DNA of 64,000 nt from Anaerorhabdus furcosa. GTDB taxonomy: Bacteria; Bacillota_I; Bacilli_A; Erysipelotrichales; Erysipelotrichaceae. The position numbers were made by a program, and so were the translations under genes. Positions within the stretch are counted from its first letter, which is position 1; the number at the start of each line of letters is the position of its first letter. The notes below the pieces were generated by a model. That model saw only the letters and a program-made list of their open reading frames with translations. It ran no database searches and had not been told where the DNA came from. The stretch spans positions 62,001-126,000 of the forward strand of contig NZ_FUWY01000007.1 of NCBI RefSeq assembly GCF_900167375.1. Reading direction: 5' to 3'. Below, one piece after another: positions 40,630-49,292 of this stretch.

Positions 40630-41463
40630 ATGGAAAAATTAAAAGTTGGATATCAAGGAGAACATGGTACATTTAGTGAAATTGCCGTATGTCAGTATTA
40701 CAAGAATATAGAAATTGAACAAAGAAGTTATAAGAATTTTATTGATATTTTAAATGATTTAGAAAGCGGTGTTTTAGATACAGCACTTTTACCTGTTGAG
40801 AATAGTACAACGGGAATTATTTATCGTACCTATGATTTACTTGCGAGTCGTGATGTTTTTGCGATTGGTGAGCAAAACGTTAGAATACAAGAAAACTTAA
40901 TTGGTATACAGGGTTCAAAAATAGAAGAGATTAAAGAAGTTTATAGTCATCCAGAAGCTTTAGGACAATGTACTGGTTTCTTTAATACGCATCCATGGAT
41001 GAAACCAGTTTCTTATCAAGATACTGCAAAGAGTGTTGAATTTATTAAGGAGTGTAATGATCCAACTAAAGGGGCACTCGCAAGTTATTTAGCGGCAGAA
41101 TATTATGATTGCCCTATTCTTGAAAAGAATGTGAACGATAATGCATTAAACACAACTCGCTTTCTTTGCGTATGTAAGGGCGAAAGAATTGTAGAGAATG
41201 CAAATAAAATAAGTATGTACTTTGTTGTAAACCATGAACCAGGTGCACTTTATGAGGTGATTAAAATATTCGCAGAGAATCACCTAAATATGTTAAAATT
41301 AGAGTCTAGACCAATTCAAGGTCGATTGTTTGAGTATTGTTTCTATATTGATTTTGATGGTAGCCTTGATAATCCTGTTGTTCAAGAAGTCATTGCGAAA
41401 GTTAAAGGTCATTGTGTAGAAATGAAATGTTTAGGTTCATATCGAAAATCGATGGAGGATTAA
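40630..41463 (+). CDS. pheA: Prephenate dehydratase
   Basis: 277 residues. The dehydratase domain shows GYQGEHGTFSEIA, LLPVENSTTGI, and the essential NTTRFLCV; a C-terminal ACT domain (about 195-277) has EPGALYEVI and LESRPIQGRLFEY, the phenylalanine-binding motifs for feedback control. No chorismate mutase domain is present. It makes phenylpyruvate. The ATG at 40630 follows GGGAGA. It starts the aromatic region and is followed after one base by the thioredoxin-like lipoprotein. Confidence 0.96.
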   Translation: MEKLKVGYQGEHGTFSEIAVCQYYKNIEIEQRSYKNFIDILNDLESGVLDTALLPVENSTTGIIYRTYDLLASRDVFAIGEQNVRIQENLIGIQGSKIEEIKEVYSHPEALGQCTGFFNTHPWMKPVSYQDTAKSVEFIKECNDPTKGALASYLAAEYYDCPILEKNVNDNALNTTRFLCVCKGERIVENANKISMYFVVNHEPGALYEVIKIFAENHLNMLKLESRPIQGRLFEYCFYIDFDGSLDNPVVQEVIAKVKGHCVEMKCLGSYRKSMED

Positions 41464-41464
41464 T

Positions 41465-42097
41465 ATGAAAAAAATAGTTTGTTTATTATTGGCTTTACTG
41501 CTTGTGGGATGTGCGACAACAACTGCACCTACACCAACACCTGAAGAAACAGGAAAGCCAAGTAGTAATGTTGGTTGTGATGTAACAAGTCAGTGTGAAG
41601 AGGGAGAAAAAGCAGATATGAGTGCTTATGAAAACTTTATGGATACCGATCACGTTTTCCGTTCAATTTCTATGCAAGAAGGAAATGAACTGTTAGAGAG
41701 TGATAAAACTTTTGTTTTATACTATGGTTTTTCTACATGTCCTTGGTGTATTGAATTATTACCAATACTAAATGATATAGCGAAAGAAAATGAGTATGCT
41801 GTGCATTATGTAAATGTGCGACCTGAAGGAACAGATTCAAGTTTCGATATTCGTGTGGATACCAATCCAGATTATGTTAAGCTTACAGAAATCGTGAGTG
41901 ATTATCTTCCAGTAAACGATGAAGGGGTTAAAAGATTATCCGTTCCTTTTGTCTTCTTTGTAAAAGATGGTGAAATAGTAGAAACTCATATTGGTACCTT
42001 AGATACCCACGATGCTAAGGAAAGAGTCATGACAGAAGATGAAAAAGCAGAATTAACTACAATTTTGCAACAAGATTTTCAAAAAATGAAAAAATAG
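41465..42097 (+). CDS. Thioredoxin-fold lipoprotein with CPWC motif
   Basis: 210 residues: signal peptide with lipobox LLVGC (Cys about 16), Thr/Pro linker, then a thioredoxin-like domain with YYGFSTCPWCIELLP and the cis-proline region SVPFVFFVKDGEIV. CPWC is an active dithiol pair. Two more cysteines lie in the linker (GCDVTSQC). It would act as an extracytoplasmic thiol-disulfide enzyme. Its place one base after pheA is odd and no link to aromatic synthesis is evident. Confidence 0.9.
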   Translation: MKKIVCLLLALLLVGCATTTAPTPTPEETGKPSSNVGCDVTSQCEEGEKADMSAYENFMDTDHVFRSISMQEGNELLESDKTFVLYYGFSTCPWCIELLPILNDIAKENEYAVHYVNVRPEGTDSSFDIRVDTNPDYVKLTEIVSDYLPVNDEGVKRLSVPFVFFVKDGEIVETHIGTLDTHDAKERVMTEDEKAELTTILQQDFQKMKK

Positions 42098-42118: not shown

Positions 42119-42146
42119 TTGAAAATATATTCATGTATGTTAAAAT
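42119..42146 (+). promoter_or_regulatory. Promoter of the aro operon
   Basis: TTGAAA, 16-nt spacer, TAAAAT preceded by TG (extended -10). Predicted start near 42153, 18 nt before the leader peptide ORF. Confidence 0.65.
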
Positions 42147-42170
42147 AGGACTATATTCGAGGTAAAGATT

Positions 42171-42218
42171 ATGAAACAAAACAATATTTTGAAAGGATTC
42201 TTTTATTACTTTAGATAG
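42171..42218 (+). CDS. Phe/Tyr-rich leader peptide (MKQNNILKGFFYYFR)
   Basis: A 15-codon ORF with GAGG 8 nt before its ATG. Five of its last six residues are Phe or Tyr (codons 42198-42212). It precedes mutually exclusive hairpins and the aro operon, so it has the form of an attenuation leader that senses charged tRNA-Phe and tRNA-Tyr. Translation is not shown directly. Confidence 0.75.
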   Translation: MKQNNILKGFFYYFR

Positions 42219-42232
42219 CAGGGTGATGTCAA

Positions 42233-42320
42233 TAGATATTGCCCATTTCTTGTGACTTGGCATATCTATGGTAAATATACTTAATAAAACCATATAGATT
42301 GCCTATATGGTTTTTATTTT
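42233..42320 (+). promoter_or_regulatory. Attenuator: alternative hairpins and terminator before aroB
   Basis: Segment 1 (42233-42243, TAGATATTGCC) pairs with segment 2 (42259-42268, GGCATATCTA). Segment 2 extended to 42272 can instead pair with segment 3 (42289-42303), which removes the terminator stem formed by 42286-42296 with 42304-42314 plus its T tail. The 1:2 pairing frees the terminator and the 2:3 pairing blocks it. Segment 1 starts 14 nt after the leader stop, farther than in the E. coli trp leader, so the exact mode of ribosome control is unclear. Confidence 0.75.
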
Positions 42321-42339
42321 AGACTGGTGAGGGAAAAGT

Positions 42340-43353
42340 ATGAAAATGCATTGTAATTTAGGTGAAAAAGGTTATGACATTCTACTGGAAAGAGGATGTT
42401 TAGACAAGTTGAGTAAGGTAATGGATACCACGAGGCGCTATTTTATAATTAGTGATGATGGAGTACCTACTGAACTTATCATGAAGGTTCGCAATCAACT
42501 ACAAGATGCGAATATGGTAATACTAAAACAAGGTGAAGCATCCAAGAGTATGGAGAATTATGAACATTGTTTAAAAATGATGTTGCAAAAGAAATTTACT
42601 CGCCGTGATTGTGTCTTAGCAATTGGTGGAGGCGTTGTAGGTGACTTAGCAGGCTTTGTTGCTGCAACTTATATGCGTGGAGTAGATTTTATTAATATCC
42701 CAACGACAACACTTTCTCAAATTGATAGTAGTATTGGAGGTAAGGTTGCGATTGATATGATGGGTATTAAGAATTGTGTGGGTGCATTTTGGCAACCACA
42801 ACTCGTTCTTATTGATCCAAACGTATTGACTACATTACCAACCCGTCATTTCTATAATGGCTTAGTAGAAGCGTTAAAAGCGGGTTTAATTCAAGATAAA
42901 ATCTTGTTTGAACTCTTTGAAAGAGATGATTATTTAGATCATCTTGATGAAATTCTAGAACGCTCTCTTGAAGTGAAACGAAAAGTCGTTGAAGAAGATG
43001 AAAAAGAAATGGGTCTAAGAAAAATATTAAACTTTGGACATACAGTAGGTCATGGTATTGAAAGTGCACTTCACTTTGAAGGGTATTATCATGGTGAATG
43101 CGTAGGATTAGGAATGATTGCGATTTTAGATAATCAAGAGATACAAGATCGTACTAGGAAAATACTTATTAAAATGGGTTGTCCAACGCATGCAAAAGTA
43201 AAAAGTGAAGAAGTAGGAAAATATATTGCAAGTGATAAAAAATCGAAAGGTGAATTAATTACTGTAATACGAGTTCCTCGAATTGGAGAAGCCATCTTGG
43301 AAGATATTCCGATTCAAGATGTAGAGAAAATAGCAAAGGAGGTTTGCGAATGA
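42340..43353 (+). CDS. aroB: 3-dehydroquinate synthase
   Basis: 337 residues. NAD-binding GGGVVGDLAGFVAATYMRGV, IPTTTLSQIDSSIGGK, the metal ligand regions LVEALKAG and LNFGHTVGHGIE with HGECVGLGM. It closes DAHP to 3-dehydroquinate, step two of the shikimate pathway. GGTGAGGG lies upstream of the ATG, which sits 20 nt beyond the attenuator terminator. Stop overlaps aroC by ATGA. Confidence 0.96.
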   Translation: MKMHCNLGEKGYDILLERGCLDKLSKVMDTTRRYFIISDDGVPTELIMKVRNQLQDANMVILKQGEASKSMENYEHCLKMMLQKKFTRRDCVLAIGGGVVGDLAGFVAATYMRGVDFINIPTTTLSQIDSSIGGKVAIDMMGIKNCVGAFWQPQLVLIDPNVLTTLPTRHFYNGLVEALKAGLIQDKILFELFERDDYLDHLDEILERSLEVKRKVVEEDEKEMGLRKILNFGHTVGHGIESALHFEGYYHGECVGLGMIAILDNQEIQDRTRKILIKMGCPTHAKVKSEEVGKYIASDKKSKGELITVIRVPRIGEAILEDIPIQDVEKIAKEVCE

Positions 43354-44462
43354 AAAATACAATAGGAAATTTATTTAGAGTCACACTTTTTGGTGAATCT
43401 CATGGAGAAGCTATCGGTGTTGTTTTGGATGGTGTACCTGCAGGAATTGAAATTGATAAAGAATTATTTGATCATCAAATGTTTCTAAGAAAACCAAAAG
43501 GAACTATCTCAACACAGCGACGTGAAAAAGATGAAGTCAACTTTGTAAGTGGACTCTTTGAAGATAAAACAACAGGAGCACCATGTTGCATGTTGATTTA
43601 CAATGGAGATCAACATTCTCAAGATTACTTAAAGATTAAAGATGTTGCACGACCATCTCATGCAGATTATGCCGCAAATGTAAAATATGGAGGATTCCAA
43701 GACTATCGTGGTGGTGGTCATTTCTCAGGAAGACTTACAGCACCACTGGTTGCAGCAGGAGCTATCGCTATTCAAATACTTAAAGAAAAAGGAATTACAA
43801 TTGGAACACATGTTAAACAACTACATACGATTGTTGATGATTCCTTCTCAACAGAGATTGAAGAGTGTAAAAAACAAATTGAAGAAATTAATCAAAAAGA
43901 ATTTTCCATAATAAATGAAGATAAAAAAGAAGATATGATTCAAAGAATTGATGAAGCTCGAATGAGTCTTGATGCAGTTGGTGGTGTACTTGAAACCTGT
44001 GTAATTGGAATGCCTGCCGGAATAGGTGAACCAGCATTTGATTCAATTGAAAGTCGATTATCACATGCGATATTCAGTATAGGTGCTGTGAAAGGAATTG
44101 AATTTGGATTGGGATTTGGATTTAAAGATAAAATGTCGTCTGAGGTCAATGATGAATTTGAAGTAATCGATGGCAATATAGTAACCAAAACAAATAACAA
44201 TGGTGGTATCAATGGTGGTATTTCAAATGGTATGCCAATTTTGTTTAAGACAGTAGTTAAACCGACTTCATCGATTGCGAAGCATCAAAAGTCAGTGAAT
44301 TTTAATACAAAAGAAAATGTTGATTTAGAAATAAAAGGACGTCATGATCCTGCAATTATTCACCGTGCACGTGTTGTCGTTGATAGTATGGCAGCTATTA
44401 CACTTGTGGATTGTTTGATGGAAAGATATGGCATGGTATGGTTTCAAGGAGAAAAGAAATGA
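43350..44462 (+). CDS. aroC: Chorismate synthase
   Basis: 370 residues. GESHGEAIGVVLDGVPAG, QRREKDEVNFVSGLF, DYRGGGHFSGRLTAPLVAAG, and C-terminal RHDPAIIHRARVVVDSM are the flavin- and substrate-binding signatures. It makes chorismate from EPSP. The ATG at 43350 sits behind AAGGAGG and overlaps the aroB stop; a TTG two codons upstream is rejected. Confidence 0.96.
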   Translation: MKNTIGNLFRVTLFGESHGEAIGVVLDGVPAGIEIDKELFDHQMFLRKPKGTISTQRREKDEVNFVSGLFEDKTTGAPCCMLIYNGDQHSQDYLKIKDVARPSHADYAANVKYGGFQDYRGGGHFSGRLTAPLVAAGAIAIQILKEKGITIGTHVKQLHTIVDDSFSTEIEECKKQIEEINQKEFSIINEDKKEDMIQRIDEARMSLDAVGGVLETCVIGMPAGIGEPAFDSIESRLSHAIFSIGAVKGIEFGLGFGFKDKMSSEVNDEFEVIDGNIVTKTNNNGGINGGISNGMPILFKTVVKPTSSIAKHQKSVNFNTKENVDLEIKGRHDPAIIHRARVVVDSMAAITLVDCLMERYGMVWFQGEKK

Positions 44463-45709
44463 AGCGTGGATTAATTGGTTACCCTTTAGGGCATAGTTAT
44501 TCAAAACCAATTCATGAAAAATTGGGTGGTTATCCATTTGAAATCGTTGAGCTTCATCCTGATAACTTTGATTCATTTATGAAAGAAAAAAACTTTGTAT
44601 CAATCAATGTGACTATTCCCTATAAACAACAAATCATTCCTTATCTTGATGAACTGGATGAGAAAGCTAAGAAAATAGGAGCAGTGAACACAGTAATCAA
44701 TCAAGATGGAAAATTAATTGGATACAATACGGATTATTATGGATTCTGGTGGATGTTGAATCATCACAAAGTCATGATTGAAAATAAAAAAGTTGCGATA
44801 CTTGGAAATGGTGGTGCAACGCAAGCAGTCAAGGTAGTCATAGAAGATATGGGTGCAAAAGAAATCATCATTGTATCAAGAAAAAGTTCTGATGAATCCA
44901 TATCGTATGAAGAGTTATACAAACAACATAACGACATTGAAGTTTTAATCAATGCAACCCCTGTAGGCATGTCACCAAAACATGATGCAAGTCCAATTGA
45001 ACTTGAAAACTTCAAACACTTAGAAAGTGTTGTGGATATTGTGTACAATCCACTAAGAACTAAATTAATGATTGATGCAGAAAAGTTAAATCTTCAAACG
45101 GTGGGTGGATTAGAGATGCTAGTTGCCCAAGCAAAACAAGCTGTTGAAATCTTTGTTGATAAAACTCTGAGTGATCAGGATATAGAAAATGTACATCACA
45201 TGATTAAAAGCAAAAAAGAGAATCTAGTATTTATTGGAATGCCTTCTTCGGGTAAAACGACAATCGCTAAAATATTAAGTGAAGAACTTGATTTGCCTTT
45301 TGTGGATTTGGATGAAGAAATCGTTAGAAAATCAGGTAAAACAATAAAAGAAATTTTTGCAGAAAGTGGAGAGGATAAATTCAGAGAAATTGAAGCTGAA
45401 TGTGTACTTGATCATTGCATGGATGAGGGTCGTGTTATCTCATGTGGGGGTGGCGTTATCAAAAATAGTAAAAATATTGAGCATCTTAAAAAGAAGGGGT
45501 ATCTTATTTGGATTGATCGTGACTTAGAATTTCTTAAATCAGATCAAAATAGACCACTATGTAAAGATGATGAAACAATGAAAAGACTTTATTTAGAGCG
45601 ATATCCGATCTATAAAGAAGCAGCGGATTGTAGAATTGAAAACAACAACTCTGTTGAAGAGATAGTAAATAAAATAAGAACCCATTTAGAAAGTAGGAAA
45701 ACAAAATGA
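44459..45709 (+). CDS. aroEK: Fused shikimate dehydrogenase-shikimate kinase
   Basis: 416 residues in one frame. Residues 1-245 are shikimate dehydrogenase: GYPLGHSYSKPIHE, NVTIPYK with the catalytic Lys, GAVNTV, NTDYYGF, and NADP loop LGNGGATQAV. Residues about 255-416 are shikimate kinase: Walker A GMPSSGKT (260-267), VDLDEEI, GEDKFREIE, CGGGVI and NRPL lid Arg. The two consecutive reactions dehydroshikimate to shikimate to shikimate 3-phosphate are thus joined. Starts in the aroC stop (ATGA). Confidence 0.95.
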   Translation: MKRGLIGYPLGHSYSKPIHEKLGGYPFEIVELHPDNFDSFMKEKNFVSINVTIPYKQQIIPYLDELDEKAKKIGAVNTVINQDGKLIGYNTDYYGFWWMLNHHKVMIENKKVAILGNGGATQAVKVVIEDMGAKEIIIVSRKSSDESISYEELYKQHNDIEVLINATPVGMSPKHDASPIELENFKHLESVVDIVYNPLRTKLMIDAEKLNLQTVGGLEMLVAQAKQAVEIFVDKTLSDQDIENVHHMIKSKKENLVFIGMPSSGKTTIAKILSEELDLPFVDLDEEIVRKSGKTIKEIFAESGEDKFREIEAECVLDHCMDEGRVISCGGGVIKNSKNIEHLKKKGYLIWIDRDLEFLKSDQNRPLCKDDETMKRLYLERYPIYKEAADCRIENNNSVEEIVNKIRTHLESRKTK

Positions 45710-46731
45710 TAATAACATTAAAAAAAGGTGCTCCGGAGCACGAAATAAATAAATTAATTCACCAATTTGAAACACAAGGTTTACAAGTAAATATGATTAC
45801 TGGACAAAATTTCAATGTGTTCGGTTTAGTAGGCGATACGGCAAAGTTAGATGAAAAACGCATTCAAGCAAATGAATGGGTAGAAAATGTTCAACGTATC
45901 GCCGCACCCTATAAACTTTCTAATAGAATGTTTCACCCAGAGGACACTGTTGTGGATGTAAATGGAATCCAAGTAGGTGGAGAAAATCCAATTGTTATTA
46001 TTGGTGGACCATGTTCTGTTGAGGGTGAATCAATGATGGTTGAAGTAGCAGAAAAAGTAAAAGAAGCAGGTGGATGTATGATGCGAGGCGGTGCATACAA
46101 ACCAAGAACATCACCTTATGCTTTCCAAGGTATGGGTGAAGAAGGATTAATCTGCATGGATAAAGCACGTGCAAAAACAGGATTACCTATCGTATCTGAA
46201 TTAATGAGTGCAGATAAAATTGATGAGTTTGTTAAGTATGTCGATATTATTCAAATTGGTGCACGTAATATGCAAAACTTTGATTTATTAAAAGCAGTAG
46301 GAAAACTAGATAAACCAATTTTATTAAAAAGAGGTTTAGCGAATACGATTGAAGAGTGGATTATGTCAGCAGAATACATTATGGCAGGTGGCAATAAAAA
46401 TGTAATTCTTTGCGAACGTGGTATTCGTACATTTGAAAAATATACACGCAATACACTTGATTTAAGTGTTGTTCCTATTATTAAACAAAAAACACATTTA
46501 CCGATTATTATTGATCCCTCTCATGCAACAGGAGACTGGAAATTAATTGAGAGTATGTCACTTGCAGCAATTGCAGCAGGGGCTGATGGATTAATTATCG
46601 AAGTTCATCAAAATCCAGAATGTGCATGGTCAGATGGCCAACAATCACTTAAACCAGAAAAATTTAAACAAGTTGTAGAAAAATGCAAGAAGGTCGCGGA
46701 AGCAATTGGTCGCTCTGTTTATGAAGGTTAA
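45706..46731 (+). CDS. aroF: DAHP synthase (type I beta)
   Basis: 341 residues. The N-terminal 70 form the ferredoxin-like regulatory domain of the Thermotoga/AroF-I-beta type (MIITLKKGAPEHEINKLI). The TIM barrel has GGPCSVEGESMM, GGAYKPRTSPYAFQGMG, IGARNMQNF, LLKRG and DPSHATGDW. It makes DAHP from PEP and erythrose 4-phosphate, the pathway entry. No chorismate mutase domain is attached. Overlaps aroEK by four bases and aroA by eleven. Confidence 0.96.
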   Translation: MIITLKKGAPEHEINKLIHQFETQGLQVNMITGQNFNVFGLVGDTAKLDEKRIQANEWVENVQRIAAPYKLSNRMFHPEDTVVDVNGIQVGGENPIVIIGGPCSVEGESMMVEVAEKVKEAGGCMMRGGAYKPRTSPYAFQGMGEEGLICMDKARAKTGLPIVSELMSADKIDEFVKYVDIIQIGARNMQNFDLLKAVGKLDKPILLKRGLANTIEEWIMSAEYIMAGGNKNVILCERGIRTFEKYTRNTLDLSVVPIIKQKTHLPIIIDPSHATGDWKLIESMSLAAIAAGADGLIIEVHQNPECAWSDGQQSLKPEKFKQVVEKCKKVAEAIGRSVYEG

Positions 46732-47995
46732 AGTAACTCCGTCCAATCTCACAAATAGAGTCATTGAAATACCTCCTAGTAAATCAATGGCTCATCGTGC
46801 GATTGTGTGTGCATCACTTGCAAAAGGTAAAAGTGTCATCACGAATGTTGATTATAGTGTTGATATTCAAACAACATTAGATGGAATGAAAAAGTTAGGT
46901 GCTAAGATTCAACAATTTGATGATTATGTTGAAATTGAAGGAATTGAAGATTTAGGGAAAATCACAAATACAGAAATTGAATGCAATGAATCAGGTTCTA
47001 CATTGCGATTCTTTATTCCTATTTTTTCATTAACAAATAAGAAAATTATTTTTACCGGTACAAAGCGTTTAATGGAAAGACCACAAGATATCTATCAACA
47101 AATCTTTGATGAACAAGGTCTTCATTTTAGACAAGATACAGGGAAAATAGAAGTAGAAGGTTCAATCCAAAGTAAACGTTATAAATTAAAGGGAAATGTT
47201 TCCTCACAATTTATATCAGGATTATTATTTTCATTGCCTTTATTAAAAATGGATTCAGTAATTGAAATTGAACCACCTTTCGAAAGTAGATCTTATGTGG
47301 ATTTGACATTGCAAATGATGAAGCATTTTAATGTGTACGCGCATTTCGTAAATGATACAACCATCCATATTCCGGGTAATCAATCTTATCTTGCAAAAGA
47401 CACACGCGTTGAAGGTGATTTTTCACAACTTGGTTTTTATGCCGTTTTAGGAGCTCTGCAAGGTCCTCTTGATTGTATTGGGTTAAATACCAATTCACTA
47501 CAAGGAGATAAGCAAATCGTCTCTATACTAAAAGATATGGGAGTTAAGATAGATGTGCTTGAAGATGGCTATCGTTTCCATAAAGCTGATTTAAAAGGAT
47601 GTATGATTGATTTAAATAACTGCCCTGACTTAGGTCCAATCTTATCAACATGTGCAAGTTTTGCGCAAGGTGAGACAAATATTGTCAATGCAGGCCGTTT
47701 AAGAATTAAAGAGAGTGATCGTATCCAAGCAATGGAAGATGAATTGTTGAAGTGTGGTGTTGATTTCTCTTCGACAAAAAATACGATGACAATTAAAGGA
47801 CCATGCGCTTTTGAATGTAACAGTGAACTACATGGTCACAATGATCATCGCATTGTTATGGCATTATCGATTGCAGCTACGTGTGCAAAACAACCTCTAC
47901 TCATTGATGATGCACAATCAATTAGAAAGTCATATCCAGGATTCTTTGAAGATTTAATGTCACTAGGAATCCAGGTAGAGAAAATCGATGATTAG
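46721..47995 (+). CDS. aroA: EPSP synthase
   Basis: 424 residues. IPPSKSMAHRAIVCASLA (PEP/shikimate phosphate site), NESGSTLRFFIPI, SSQFISGLLFSLPL, DCPDLGPIL-like segment NNCPDLGPILSTCA, RLRIKESDRIQAMEDEL, and HGHNDHRIVMAL. The catalytic-loop residues are all present. The chosen ATG overlaps the aroF end; a start five codons earlier also exists but neither has a strong site, so coupled translation is likely. Confidence 0.95.
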   Translation: MKVKVTPSNLTNRVIEIPPSKSMAHRAIVCASLAKGKSVITNVDYSVDIQTTLDGMKKLGAKIQQFDDYVEIEGIEDLGKITNTEIECNESGSTLRFFIPIFSLTNKKIIFTGTKRLMERPQDIYQQIFDEQGLHFRQDTGKIEVEGSIQSKRYKLKGNVSSQFISGLLFSLPLLKMDSVIEIEPPFESRSYVDLTLQMMKHFNVYAHFVNDTTIHIPGNQSYLAKDTRVEGDFSQLGFYAVLGALQGPLDCIGLNTNSLQGDKQIVSILKDMGVKIDVLEDGYRFHKADLKGCMIDLNNCPDLGPILSTCASFAQGETNIVNAGRLRIKESDRIQAMEDELLKCGVDFSSTKNTMTIKGPCAFECNSELHGHNDHRIVMALSIAATCAKQPLLIDDAQSIRKSYPGFFEDLMSLGIQVEKIDD

Positions 47996-48836
47996 TAAGG
48001 ACACACGATTTTGTATTGTAGGATTAGGTTTATTGGGAGGATCTTATGCCCAAGGTTTAAAAGCAAATGGATTTTATGTCACAGCGATTGATATCAATGA
48101 AGAGAGTATAGATTATGCACTCAATCAAGGCTGGATAGATGAGGGTGGTGTTACACCGACAAATCAACTTCTCGATGTAGATTGCATTGTACTTGGACTT
48201 TATCCCAATGTCGTTGTTAAGTGGATGAAGCAGTACCAAGATAAAATTAAGTCAGGTTGTATCATTACCGATGTAACGGGAGTAAAACGCGGAATTGTAC
48301 CTGAGATTCAATCAATTCTTCGTCCTGATTTAGAATTTGTTGCAAGTCACCCAATGGCAGGAAGAGAAGTAAGTGGTGTTCAATATAGTGATCCTAATAT
48401 TTTCAAACCTGCAAATTTCATCGTAACACCAACCGATAAAAATACAGATACAGCAATTGAGTTTGTAAAGGATTTATCCAAAGAACTAAGTTTCAATCGC
48501 ACAACTGAGTTATCACTGAGTCAACATGATGAAATGATTGCGTTTTTATCACAGTTAACCCATGTTATTGCGGTGAGTTTAATGAATACCAATGACAATA
48601 CACATCTTGTTGATTATACAGGAGATAGCTTTAGAGATTTAACTCGTATTGCTAAAATCAATGAAAATTTGTGGAGTGAGTTATTTATCATGAATAAAGA
48701 TTACTTACTCAAAGAAATTGATGATTTTCTAGATGAAATGAAACGCTTTCGTGATACACTAGAAACTGAAGATATCGAGGAAATGAAAAGATTGTTTATT
48801 CAATCAACAACGAGAAGAAAATTATTCGATAAATAG
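47988..48836 (+). CDS. tyrA: Prephenate dehydrogenase
   Basis: 282 residues. Rossmann loop IVGLGLLGGSYAQGLK, IDIN for NAD preference, the catalytic His region FVASHPMAGREVSGV, and C-terminal FLSQLTHVIAVSLM. No chorismate mutase or ACT domain is attached. It makes 4-hydroxyphenylpyruvate for tyrosine. Overlaps aroA by eight bases. Confidence 0.95.
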   Translation: MISKDTRFCIVGLGLLGGSYAQGLKANGFYVTAIDINEESIDYALNQGWIDEGGVTPTNQLLDVDCIVLGLYPNVVVKWMKQYQDKIKSGCIITDVTGVKRGIVPEIQSILRPDLEFVASHPMAGREVSGVQYSDPNIFKPANFIVTPTDKNTDTAIEFVKDLSKELSFNRTTELSLSQHDEMIAFLSQLTHVIAVSLMNTNDNTHLVDYTGDSFRDLTRIAKINENLWSELFIMNKDYLLKEIDDFLDEMKRFRDTLETEDIEEMKRLFIQSTTRRKLFDK

Positions 48837-48845
48837 GAGGTAAGT

Positions 48846-49292
48846 ATGAAGTTCTATATCATCAATGGTCCCAATATTAACATGGTTGGTATTCGTGAGA
48901 AACAAATTTATGGCACAATGGATTTCAATCAAGTGATTGAATTAATTCAAAGTGAATCGATTCAACGAGGAATCGAAGTAGAATGTTTCCAAAGTAATCA
49001 TGAAGGAACATTGGTTGATATAATTCAAGATGCTTATTTTAAGAATATTGATGGTATTGTGATTAACCCTGCTGCATATACACATACAAGTGTTGCCATA
49101 GCAGATGCAATTAAAGCAATTGCACCTATTCCTGTTGTAGAAGTTCATCTCTCAGATATAAAAGAAAGAGAAGCGTTTAGGCACCACTCTTATTGTGCTC
49201 CTTATTGTATAGAGCAAATTAAGGGACATGGTCCACAAGGGTACATCATGGCAATGGATGTCCTCATTAAAGCAATTGGTGAAAAACAATGA
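48846..49292 (+). CDS. aroQ: 3-dehydroquinate dehydratase, type II
   Basis: 148 residues. INGPNINMVGIREKQIYG carries the flexible-loop Arg and Tyr; FQSNHEGTLVDIIQDA, NPAAYTHTSVAIADA and VEVHLSDIKEREAFRHHSY give the remaining active-site Asn, His and Arg residues. It completes the set of shikimate pathway enzymes in this operon. AGGAGG site; stop overlaps the next gene. Confidence 0.96.
   Translation: MKFYIINGPNINMVGIREKQIYGTMDFNQVIELIQSESIQRGIEVECFQSNHEGTLVDIIQDAYFKNIDGIVINPAAYTHTSVAIADAIKAIAPIPVVEVHLSDIKEREAFRHHSYCAPYCIEQIKGHGPQGYIMAMDVLIKAIGEKQ

Follow-up and report, generated by a model that had tools for sequence, protein, structure and literature searches.

The aro–tyrA operon of Anaerorhabdus furcosa is very probably controlled by a ribosome-position transcription attenuator, in which the supply of Phe-tRNA and Tyr-tRNA would be read through a short leader peptide and would set read-through into the operon. 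Leader-peptide attenuation had been proposed in an earlier note on the window (the whole 64,000-nucleotide stretch of DNA analysed, to which all coordinates refer unless a locus is named), and the proposal is now supported by the anatomy of the locus, the conservation of the peptide, the covariation of the helices and the folding of the window's leader around a masked ribosome; the kinetics, the response to Phe and Tyr, and the sign of the regulation we infer.

Organization of the leader and the operon

The leader runs for some 200 nt from promoter to terminator, between the end of an ORF at 42097 and the start of aroB at 42340 (Table 1). All of the elements that the earlier note had placed ahead of the aro genes, namely, a GAGG, an ORF rich in Phe and Tyr codons and a terminator, are present in the sequence: the Shine–Dalgarno motif precedes a short, putatively translated ORF whose conserved F/Y codons fit those of an attenuator, and the intrinsic terminator lies between this ORF and the structural genes. 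The regulatory codons of the peptide are F10, F11, Y12, Y13 and F14. The promoter that the note had called good looks sigma-70-like but is less secure: its TTGAAA (42119–42124) and TAAAAT (42141–42146) boxes, 16 nt apart, are certainly there and match the consensus at 10 of 12 positions, but promoter-like sites in the region are near chance level (12 found versus 8.9 in shuffles).

Table 1. Features of the leader, the operon and the neighbouring pheA gene
Feature	Position	Strand	Basis
pheA, prephenate dehydratase (upstream of attenuator, another ORF between)	~40630–41460		Pfam
Candidate promoter TTGAAA-16-TAAAAT, TG before –10	42119–42146	+	Consensus scan alone
Shine–Dalgarno GAGG of leader ORF	42159–42162	+	Sequence
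Leader peptide MKQNNILKGFFYYFR, including stop TAG	42171–42218	+	Conserved F/Y-rich ORF, frame-specific F/Y codons
Segment A (last codons and stop), partner of D	42206–42219	+	Minimum-energy fold, covariation
Segment B, inner hairpin 5' arm	42221–42230	+	Fold; hairpin –11.9 kcal/mol
Segment C, inner hairpin 3' arm, alternative D partner	42232–42244	+	Covariation; C:D duplex –12.7 kcal/mol
Segment D, antiterminator 5' strand; A, C and E compete for it	42259–42274	+	Alignment, covariation
Segment E, terminator 5' arm and loop, antiterminator with D	42289–42303	+	Covariation; D:E duplex –14.2 kcal/mol
Intrinsic terminator stem-loop E:F	42286–42314	+	12 pairs, –12.5 kcal/mol, T-rich tail to ~42321
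aroB, first controlled gene	42340–43353	+	Pfam DHQ_synthase, DHQS_C
aroC, chorismate synthase	43350–44462	+	Pfam Chorismate_synt
aroE–aroK fusion (shikimate dehydrogenase and shikimate kinase, one ORF)	44459–45709	+	Pfam Shikimate_dh_N, SKI
DAHP synthase	45706–46731	+	Pfam DAHP_synth_1
aroA, EPSP synthase	46724–47995	+	Pfam EPSP_synthase
tyrA, prephenate dehydrogenase	47988–48836	+	Pfam PDH_N, PDH_C
aroQ, type II dehydroquinase	48846–49292	+	Pfam DHquinase_II

Downstream of the terminator lie seven shikimate and tyrosine genes. The codons of the peptide had been matched to the products of pheA and tyrA; pheA, however, lies upstream of the attenuator and is, therefore, not behind the terminator. 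The ORF that separates pheA from the attenuator (41465–42097, 210 aa) has a lipoprotein-like start and a CPWC motif, and by eye it is thioredoxin-like; a Pfam search with it gave no match.

The region 42152–42325 folds with –39.5 kcal/mol, compared with –28.4 kcal/mol in shuffles (z –3.1), and beats 198 of 200 dinucleotide-shuffled sequences. Its minimum-energy fold pairs 42206–42219 with 42260–42274, thereby enclosing an inner hairpin, B:C, that spans 42221–42244. The competing pairings described in the earlier note are real, although its first segment (TAGATATTGCC, 42233–42243) proves to be the 3' half of this inner hairpin, and what it had offered as an alternative first segment, at the last codons, is a genuine second partner of D.

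Conservation of the leader peptide

We matched aroB in 127 of the 244 genomes of the window's family, and examined the upstream regions of 111 family aroB loci, with eight more (L175–L182) added later. Kept outside the counts were G129, which has too little upstream DNA, G092, G172 and G238, which have split or partial genes, G251, G259, G265 and G266, which gave very weak matches, and the loci L184–L187 from a search of the order. A blind test called for an ORF of 7–40 codons that begins with ATG, lies at –240 to –60 and has F or Y at four or more of its last seven codons. It is positive in 60 of the 111 loci, whereas dinucleotide shuffles lead one to expect 1.4 and the reverse strand yields none; none of the eight added loci is positive (60 of 119 in total), so that by this test about half of the family loci, 59 of 119, have no such leader. 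Hand curation, in which a start other than ATG and a shorter ORF are also allowed, recognizes 62 leaders among the 111 loci: 37 of type A, from 11 genera, and 25 of type B, from 15 genera. Taking blind test and curation together, 27 of the 41 genera have an F/Y leader.

Within the curated leaders, each of codons –2 to –6 is F or Y in 44–59 of 61–62 cases, compared with 4 of 62 for codon –1. Moreover, the preference is confined to one frame: the last eight codons of 54 distinct leader ends hold on average 4.98 F/Y codons in frame, versus 1.07 and 0.93 in the other two frames and 2.01 in base shuffles. The earlier note had named loss of the codons or of the pairing in relatives as the observation that would speak against its proposal; relatives were searched accordingly, and the proposal withstood the comparison.

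These counts also bear on the idea of a constitutive, partial terminator preceded by a chance ORF and subject to no regulation. The T-rich DNA makes F/Y codons cheap, and the near-background promoter matches would suit such a site, but neither the excess of F/Y leaders over the shuffled expectation nor the covariation of mutually exclusive helices (see below) is accommodated, and we give this explanation next to no chance.

Four loci of genus g63 (L058, L060, L065 and L076) retain the aroB terminator, and two of genus g20 (L088 and L093) retain both the terminator and a D-like strand, whereas the F/Y leader is lost or shortened in all six; possibly, the switch is decaying there.

Competing helices and their covariation

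In an alignment of 30 type-A leaders made from sequence alone (A1), the single strand D is complementary to three partners, A, C and E. The proportions of cells that are paired are 78.5% for A:D, 91.2% for C:D, 87.3% for D:E and 88.9% for B:C together with the terminator, whereas slid controls pair 24–50% of cells. Cells with changes on both sides of a pair number, respectively, 28, 20, 23 and 51, against 14.2, 6.4, 7.7 and 11.3 in column shuffles, and in each case the observed number is reached by none of 500 shuffles, which is not to be read as a probability, since the column shuffle ignores relatedness and many rows of A1 come from a single genus (g32). The covariation score of every one of these helices lies above all 500 shuffles and all slid controls, which is how the check for covariation in related genomes, suggested in the earlier note, turned out. 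The helices are not independent witnesses, because C:D and D:E share D, and because A, C and E look alike. The inner hairpin by itself reaches 76.1% of cells paired in A1, because its 5' arm is aligned out of register. A second alignment, A2, made from a wider set of 37 leaders, with the near-duplicates L055, L092, L103 and L109 left out, still gives a clear excess: 25 two-sided-change cells for D:E (10.5 shuffled) and 32 for A:D (18.7 shuffled).

RNAalifold, applied to A1, returns A:D (~0.57) and C:D (~0.43) as alternatives. A:D is the weakest of the helices: its mean duplex z is –2.0, and in 8 of the 30 leaders it is equalled by at least 28 of 200 shuffles. The duplex of the terminator arm with the spacer has a mean z of –1.86 across the 37 type-A leaders, 16 of which are below –2, and a terminator strand longer by three bases has a mean z of –3.6 against the spacer in 30 leaders. 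Judged by covariation in the sets of both 30 and 37 leaders, the predicted antiterminator D:E is mutually exclusive with the terminator.

Conservation within the leader is strongest in the terminator and in the inner hairpin, which has a GCCC-rTTTy flank, as might be expected of an attenuator that binds a ligand or a protein in the manner of a riboswitch or of TRAP, and for which the short ORF would be incidental or would merely tune the response. TRAP leaders carry repeated GAG/UAG triplets that are bound by TRAP. An Rfam scan of the site finds no family that matches. Such an attenuator would leave unexplained why, in 62 curated leaders, the F/Y codons are confined to one frame and keep a fixed distance to the stop; moreover, the peptide is kept in a second and unrelated RNA architecture (the 25 type-B leaders), and the coding end itself supplies segment A, one of D's three partners. 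We consider ligand or protein binding highly improbable as the basis of the switch, and return to the ribosome-position attenuator.

Ribosome-masked folding and proposed mechanism

The nascent RNA was folded at equilibrium with a ribosome footprint, which we chose to extend from P site –15 to A site +12, held unpaired. With the window's terminator yet to emerge, the D:A pairing is 0.72 without a ribosome and falls to 0.39 with F10 in the A site and to 0.02–0.06 with F11, Y12 or Y13 there, at which positions the pairing of D with the inner-hairpin strand is 0.10–0.16; with the ribosome at F14 or at the stop, D is paired with the inner-hairpin strand instead (0.69 and 0.75, respectively). Once E has emerged, D:E is 0.77 at F10 to Y13, 0.59 at F14 and 0.09 at the stop, compared with 0.75 without a ribosome. 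In these models, the stall and stop states of the window's leader are cleanly separated. Over the 37 type-A leaders, the mean D:E is 0.64 without a ribosome, 0.72 when stalled and 0.52 at the stop: the trend is the same but the margin is small, and at equilibrium the modelled states are only partly separated. With the terminator unemerged, D is still occupied by more than 0.3 in 12 of 27 leaders stalled at codon –3, in 20 of 35 at codon –4 and in 19 of 34 at codon –5. In masked folding, an effect of ribosome position on the choice of helix is clear for the window and partial over 37 relatives.

When Phe or Tyr is short, a ribosome with F11, Y12 or Y13 in its A site would cover segment A; B:C would then form, leaving D free to pair with E, and in the absence of a terminator the operon would be transcribed. 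When Phe and Tyr are sufficient, the ribosome would proceed to the stop, where it would cover both A and B; C, now released, would take D, E:F would form and transcription would end. On a leader that is free of ribosomes, whether before translation or after release, segment A would serve as a protector, pairing with D around B:C and again allowing E:F to form. Since D:E reaches 0.75 at equilibrium without a ribosome, termination in this last state would need A:D to form first and to last, which is a matter of kinetics. An upstream stall could make itself felt beyond the stop codon because it would let B hold C, whereas a ribosome at the stop would lift B off C. This largely answers, for the window, the concern of the earlier note that, with its first segment beginning 14 nt after the stop codon, it was not obvious how a stalled ribosome would prevent the pairing of that segment; among the relatives, the answer is only partial. 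A strand with three partners would also predict opposite effects of neighbouring codons, with stalling at F11 to Y13 giving read-through and stalling at F14 giving termination.

A narrower version of the ribosome-position attenuator would sense one amino acid, in effect Tyr, and the Phe codons would be passengers. In some leaders Tyr is the only, or almost the only, one of the two (MHNKGYYYYR, MKTFRSYYYYYVG and MRMSKMYYYYE), tyrA lies inside the operon and pheA does not lie behind the terminator, and masked folding of the window makes F11, Y12 and Y13 effective, F10 partially so and F14 terminating. Phe codons are, however, frequent, with 107 F to 162 Y in the 54 distinct leader ends, and F-rich leaders exist (MKTQMFFFYYFR, and SFFFFFR and SFFFFFS before transporters); we regard sensing of Tyr alone as unlikely, and favour an attenuator that would respond to both amino acids.

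Type-B leaders

The 25 type-B leaders (e.g. MHNKGYYYYR, MRKNAYFYYYE and MNMKANASYFYFYR; loci L007:1357–1481, L067:1337–1464 and L101) present a Phe/Tyr peptide before aroB in an RNA that differs from type A. A hairpin lies directly 3' of the leader, with an outer stem (z –2.8) and an AACCA..TGGTT-like apex, and is followed by a terminator that is mostly of the form GCATC..GATGC. Duplex energies of the terminator arm disclosed no antiterminator in these 25 leaders, the mean z being –0.27 against the leader, –0.29 against the post-stop region and 0.11 against the spacer. After the hairpin near the stop codon, TTNTTT occurs in 22 of the 25, versus 4.1 in base shuffles. This is the sequence described as the NusG pause motif of B. 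subtilis (PMC12288461), and in the B. subtilis tlrB leader a leader peptide, a pause hairpin and attenuation are reported to be combined (PMC6851288). The motif is found in none of the 37 type-A leaders (3.6 expected), so that the idea of a pause is not carried over to the window.

It is conceivable, though in our judgement doubtful, that, in the window's family, the aromatic regulon has largely moved from T-box to ribosome sensing by way of at least two RNA architectures, type A being a three-partner attenuator and type B a programmed-pause attenuator. If that were true, the contested strand of type A would tell apart 'no ribosome', 'stalled' and 'at stop', whereas in type B the leader-peptide attenuator would work through a programmed pause of the polymerase in place of antiterminator helices that compete.

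Distribution and putative regulon of the type-A RNA

RNA model R1 finds matches in 48 of the 244 family genomes; model R2 finds them in 54 of 244 genomes of the order and 3 of 295 of the phylum, all of which belong to the window's family, the absence outside it being provisional because the order and phylum sets hold many family members and the filters were strict. A few of the weakest matches to R1 and R2 look like chance, as do L166, L171 and L174, which have no aromatic gene behind them. Elsewhere, type-A RNA, mostly with F/Y leaders, precedes a DAHP synthase–tyrA operon (L164, leader MIKLDKKGFYYFYYR), an SBP_bac_3 amino-acid transporter (L165 and L168) and PF04392-type ABC transporters (L167, L170, L173 and L190–L193), the leaders of the latter including SFFFFFR, AYYFYFYFR and SANYYYFYYS; additionally, it stands before an aroC operon at L169 and L172, where there is no clear leader. 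The Pfam search covered L165, L167 and L170, and the other loci are named by likeness. Together, the biosynthesis and transport genes form an apparent small regulon behind type-A leaders.

The transporter-linked elements (L165, L167, L168, L170, L173 and L190–L193) come from genera g22, g26, g61 and g73, and some of their leaders also contain Trp (QWSCYYYFS and KWQFYFLGL). The TrpX protein of Streptococcus suis is presumably of the same kind as the PF04392-type transporters. TrpX is described as a putative tryptophan/tyrosine transport protein under T-box control (PMC9382623).

T-boxes and tryptophan

In the sister family, which belongs to the same order, T-boxes precede aroB at five of eight loci (L024, L025, L028, L029 and L030); of the three without, two (L026 and L183) have less than 1 kb of upstream DNA. 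In the window's family, 52 loci were scanned upstream of aroB, of which 48 lack a curated leader and four (L001, L002, L003 and L022) have one; no T-box (RF00230) was found at any of them, at an Rfam cut-off so high that weak T-boxes may escape. A T-box had been considered for the window's own aroB locus and was ruled out, as RF00230 has no match either there or in L001. In the window's genome (G000, 2.4 Mb), 17 T-boxes score above the Rfam cut-off and a further one scores below it; none lies at the aro operon. A PF04392 (TrpX-like) gene of this genome lies behind a T-box (L196:654–897, C6) with a UGG near the specifier position, although the alignment does not settle the specifier.

No indole-glycerol-phosphate synthase was detected in G000, which is 95.7% complete, and the enzyme is found in 3 of the 23 family genomes searched. 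The organism is probably a Trp auxotroph; lack of this enzyme would explain why the leader contains Phe and Tyr codons and no Trp codons.

Comparison with known systems

Firmicutes are mostly regarded as users of T-boxes and TRAP, and B. subtilis as a bacterium whose RNA polymerase runs ahead of its ribosomes. If many genera of a single Firmicutes family retain a switch that depends on ribosome position, ahead of both biosynthesis and transport genes, the timing of ribosome and polymerase would have to be dependable there. Moreover, the same operon offers a natural side-by-side comparison, with T-boxes in the sister family and peptide leaders in the window's family: the RF00230 leader precedes the same genes in the same order of bacteria, but binds tRNA directly and has no leader peptide.

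The hisL leader of E. coli and Salmonella comprises six segments, A–F: free of ribosomes, it forms A:B and C:D; a stall gives B:C and D:E, and thereby read-through; once the ribosome has reached the stop, A and B are masked, which allows C:D and E:F to form and transcription to terminate. The window's attenuator shares B:C, C:D, D:E and E:F, but its codons are for Phe and Tyr, and its segment A pairs with D around B:C rather than with B; it is, therefore, not of the his type, but would work alike with a different layout. With pheL–pheA of E. coli it has in common a Phe-rich leader, an intrinsic terminator and the aromatic pathway, but the codons are mixed Phe/Tyr, the genes controlled are shikimate genes and tyrA, not pheA, and the RNA is different.

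Closer to the window in lineage are the His-leader attenuators reported before the his operons of six Erysipelotrichales species, in genomes without a his T-box (PMC9413887). These come from the same order and likewise combine leader peptide, terminator and antiterminator, but have His codons and control the his operon; aro operons do not appear in the passages of that paper that concern them. The uORFC-13-1 motif before aroF of Acholeplasma (24 sequences from one genus and the environment, with at least one Phe codon) similarly places a Phe-coding uORF and a terminator ahead of a gene of the shikimate pathway, in a Gram-positive relative of low GC content, but the gene is another and Tyr goes unmentioned in its description (PMC8632094). 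Leader-peptide attenuation in Firmicutes is also described for the Leu-rich attenuator of S. aureus ilv-leu (PMC5794164) and for the hisS/hisZ leaders of Bacilli (PMC2965389), which serve other amino acids and operons. We found no paper on Phe/Tyr leaders before the aro operons of the window's family, in a literature search with most subscription journals outside its full-text reach. Overall, the principle is known in Firmicutes; what is new is the operon, the lineage, the dual Phe/Tyr codons, the A:D layout and the apparent small regulon.
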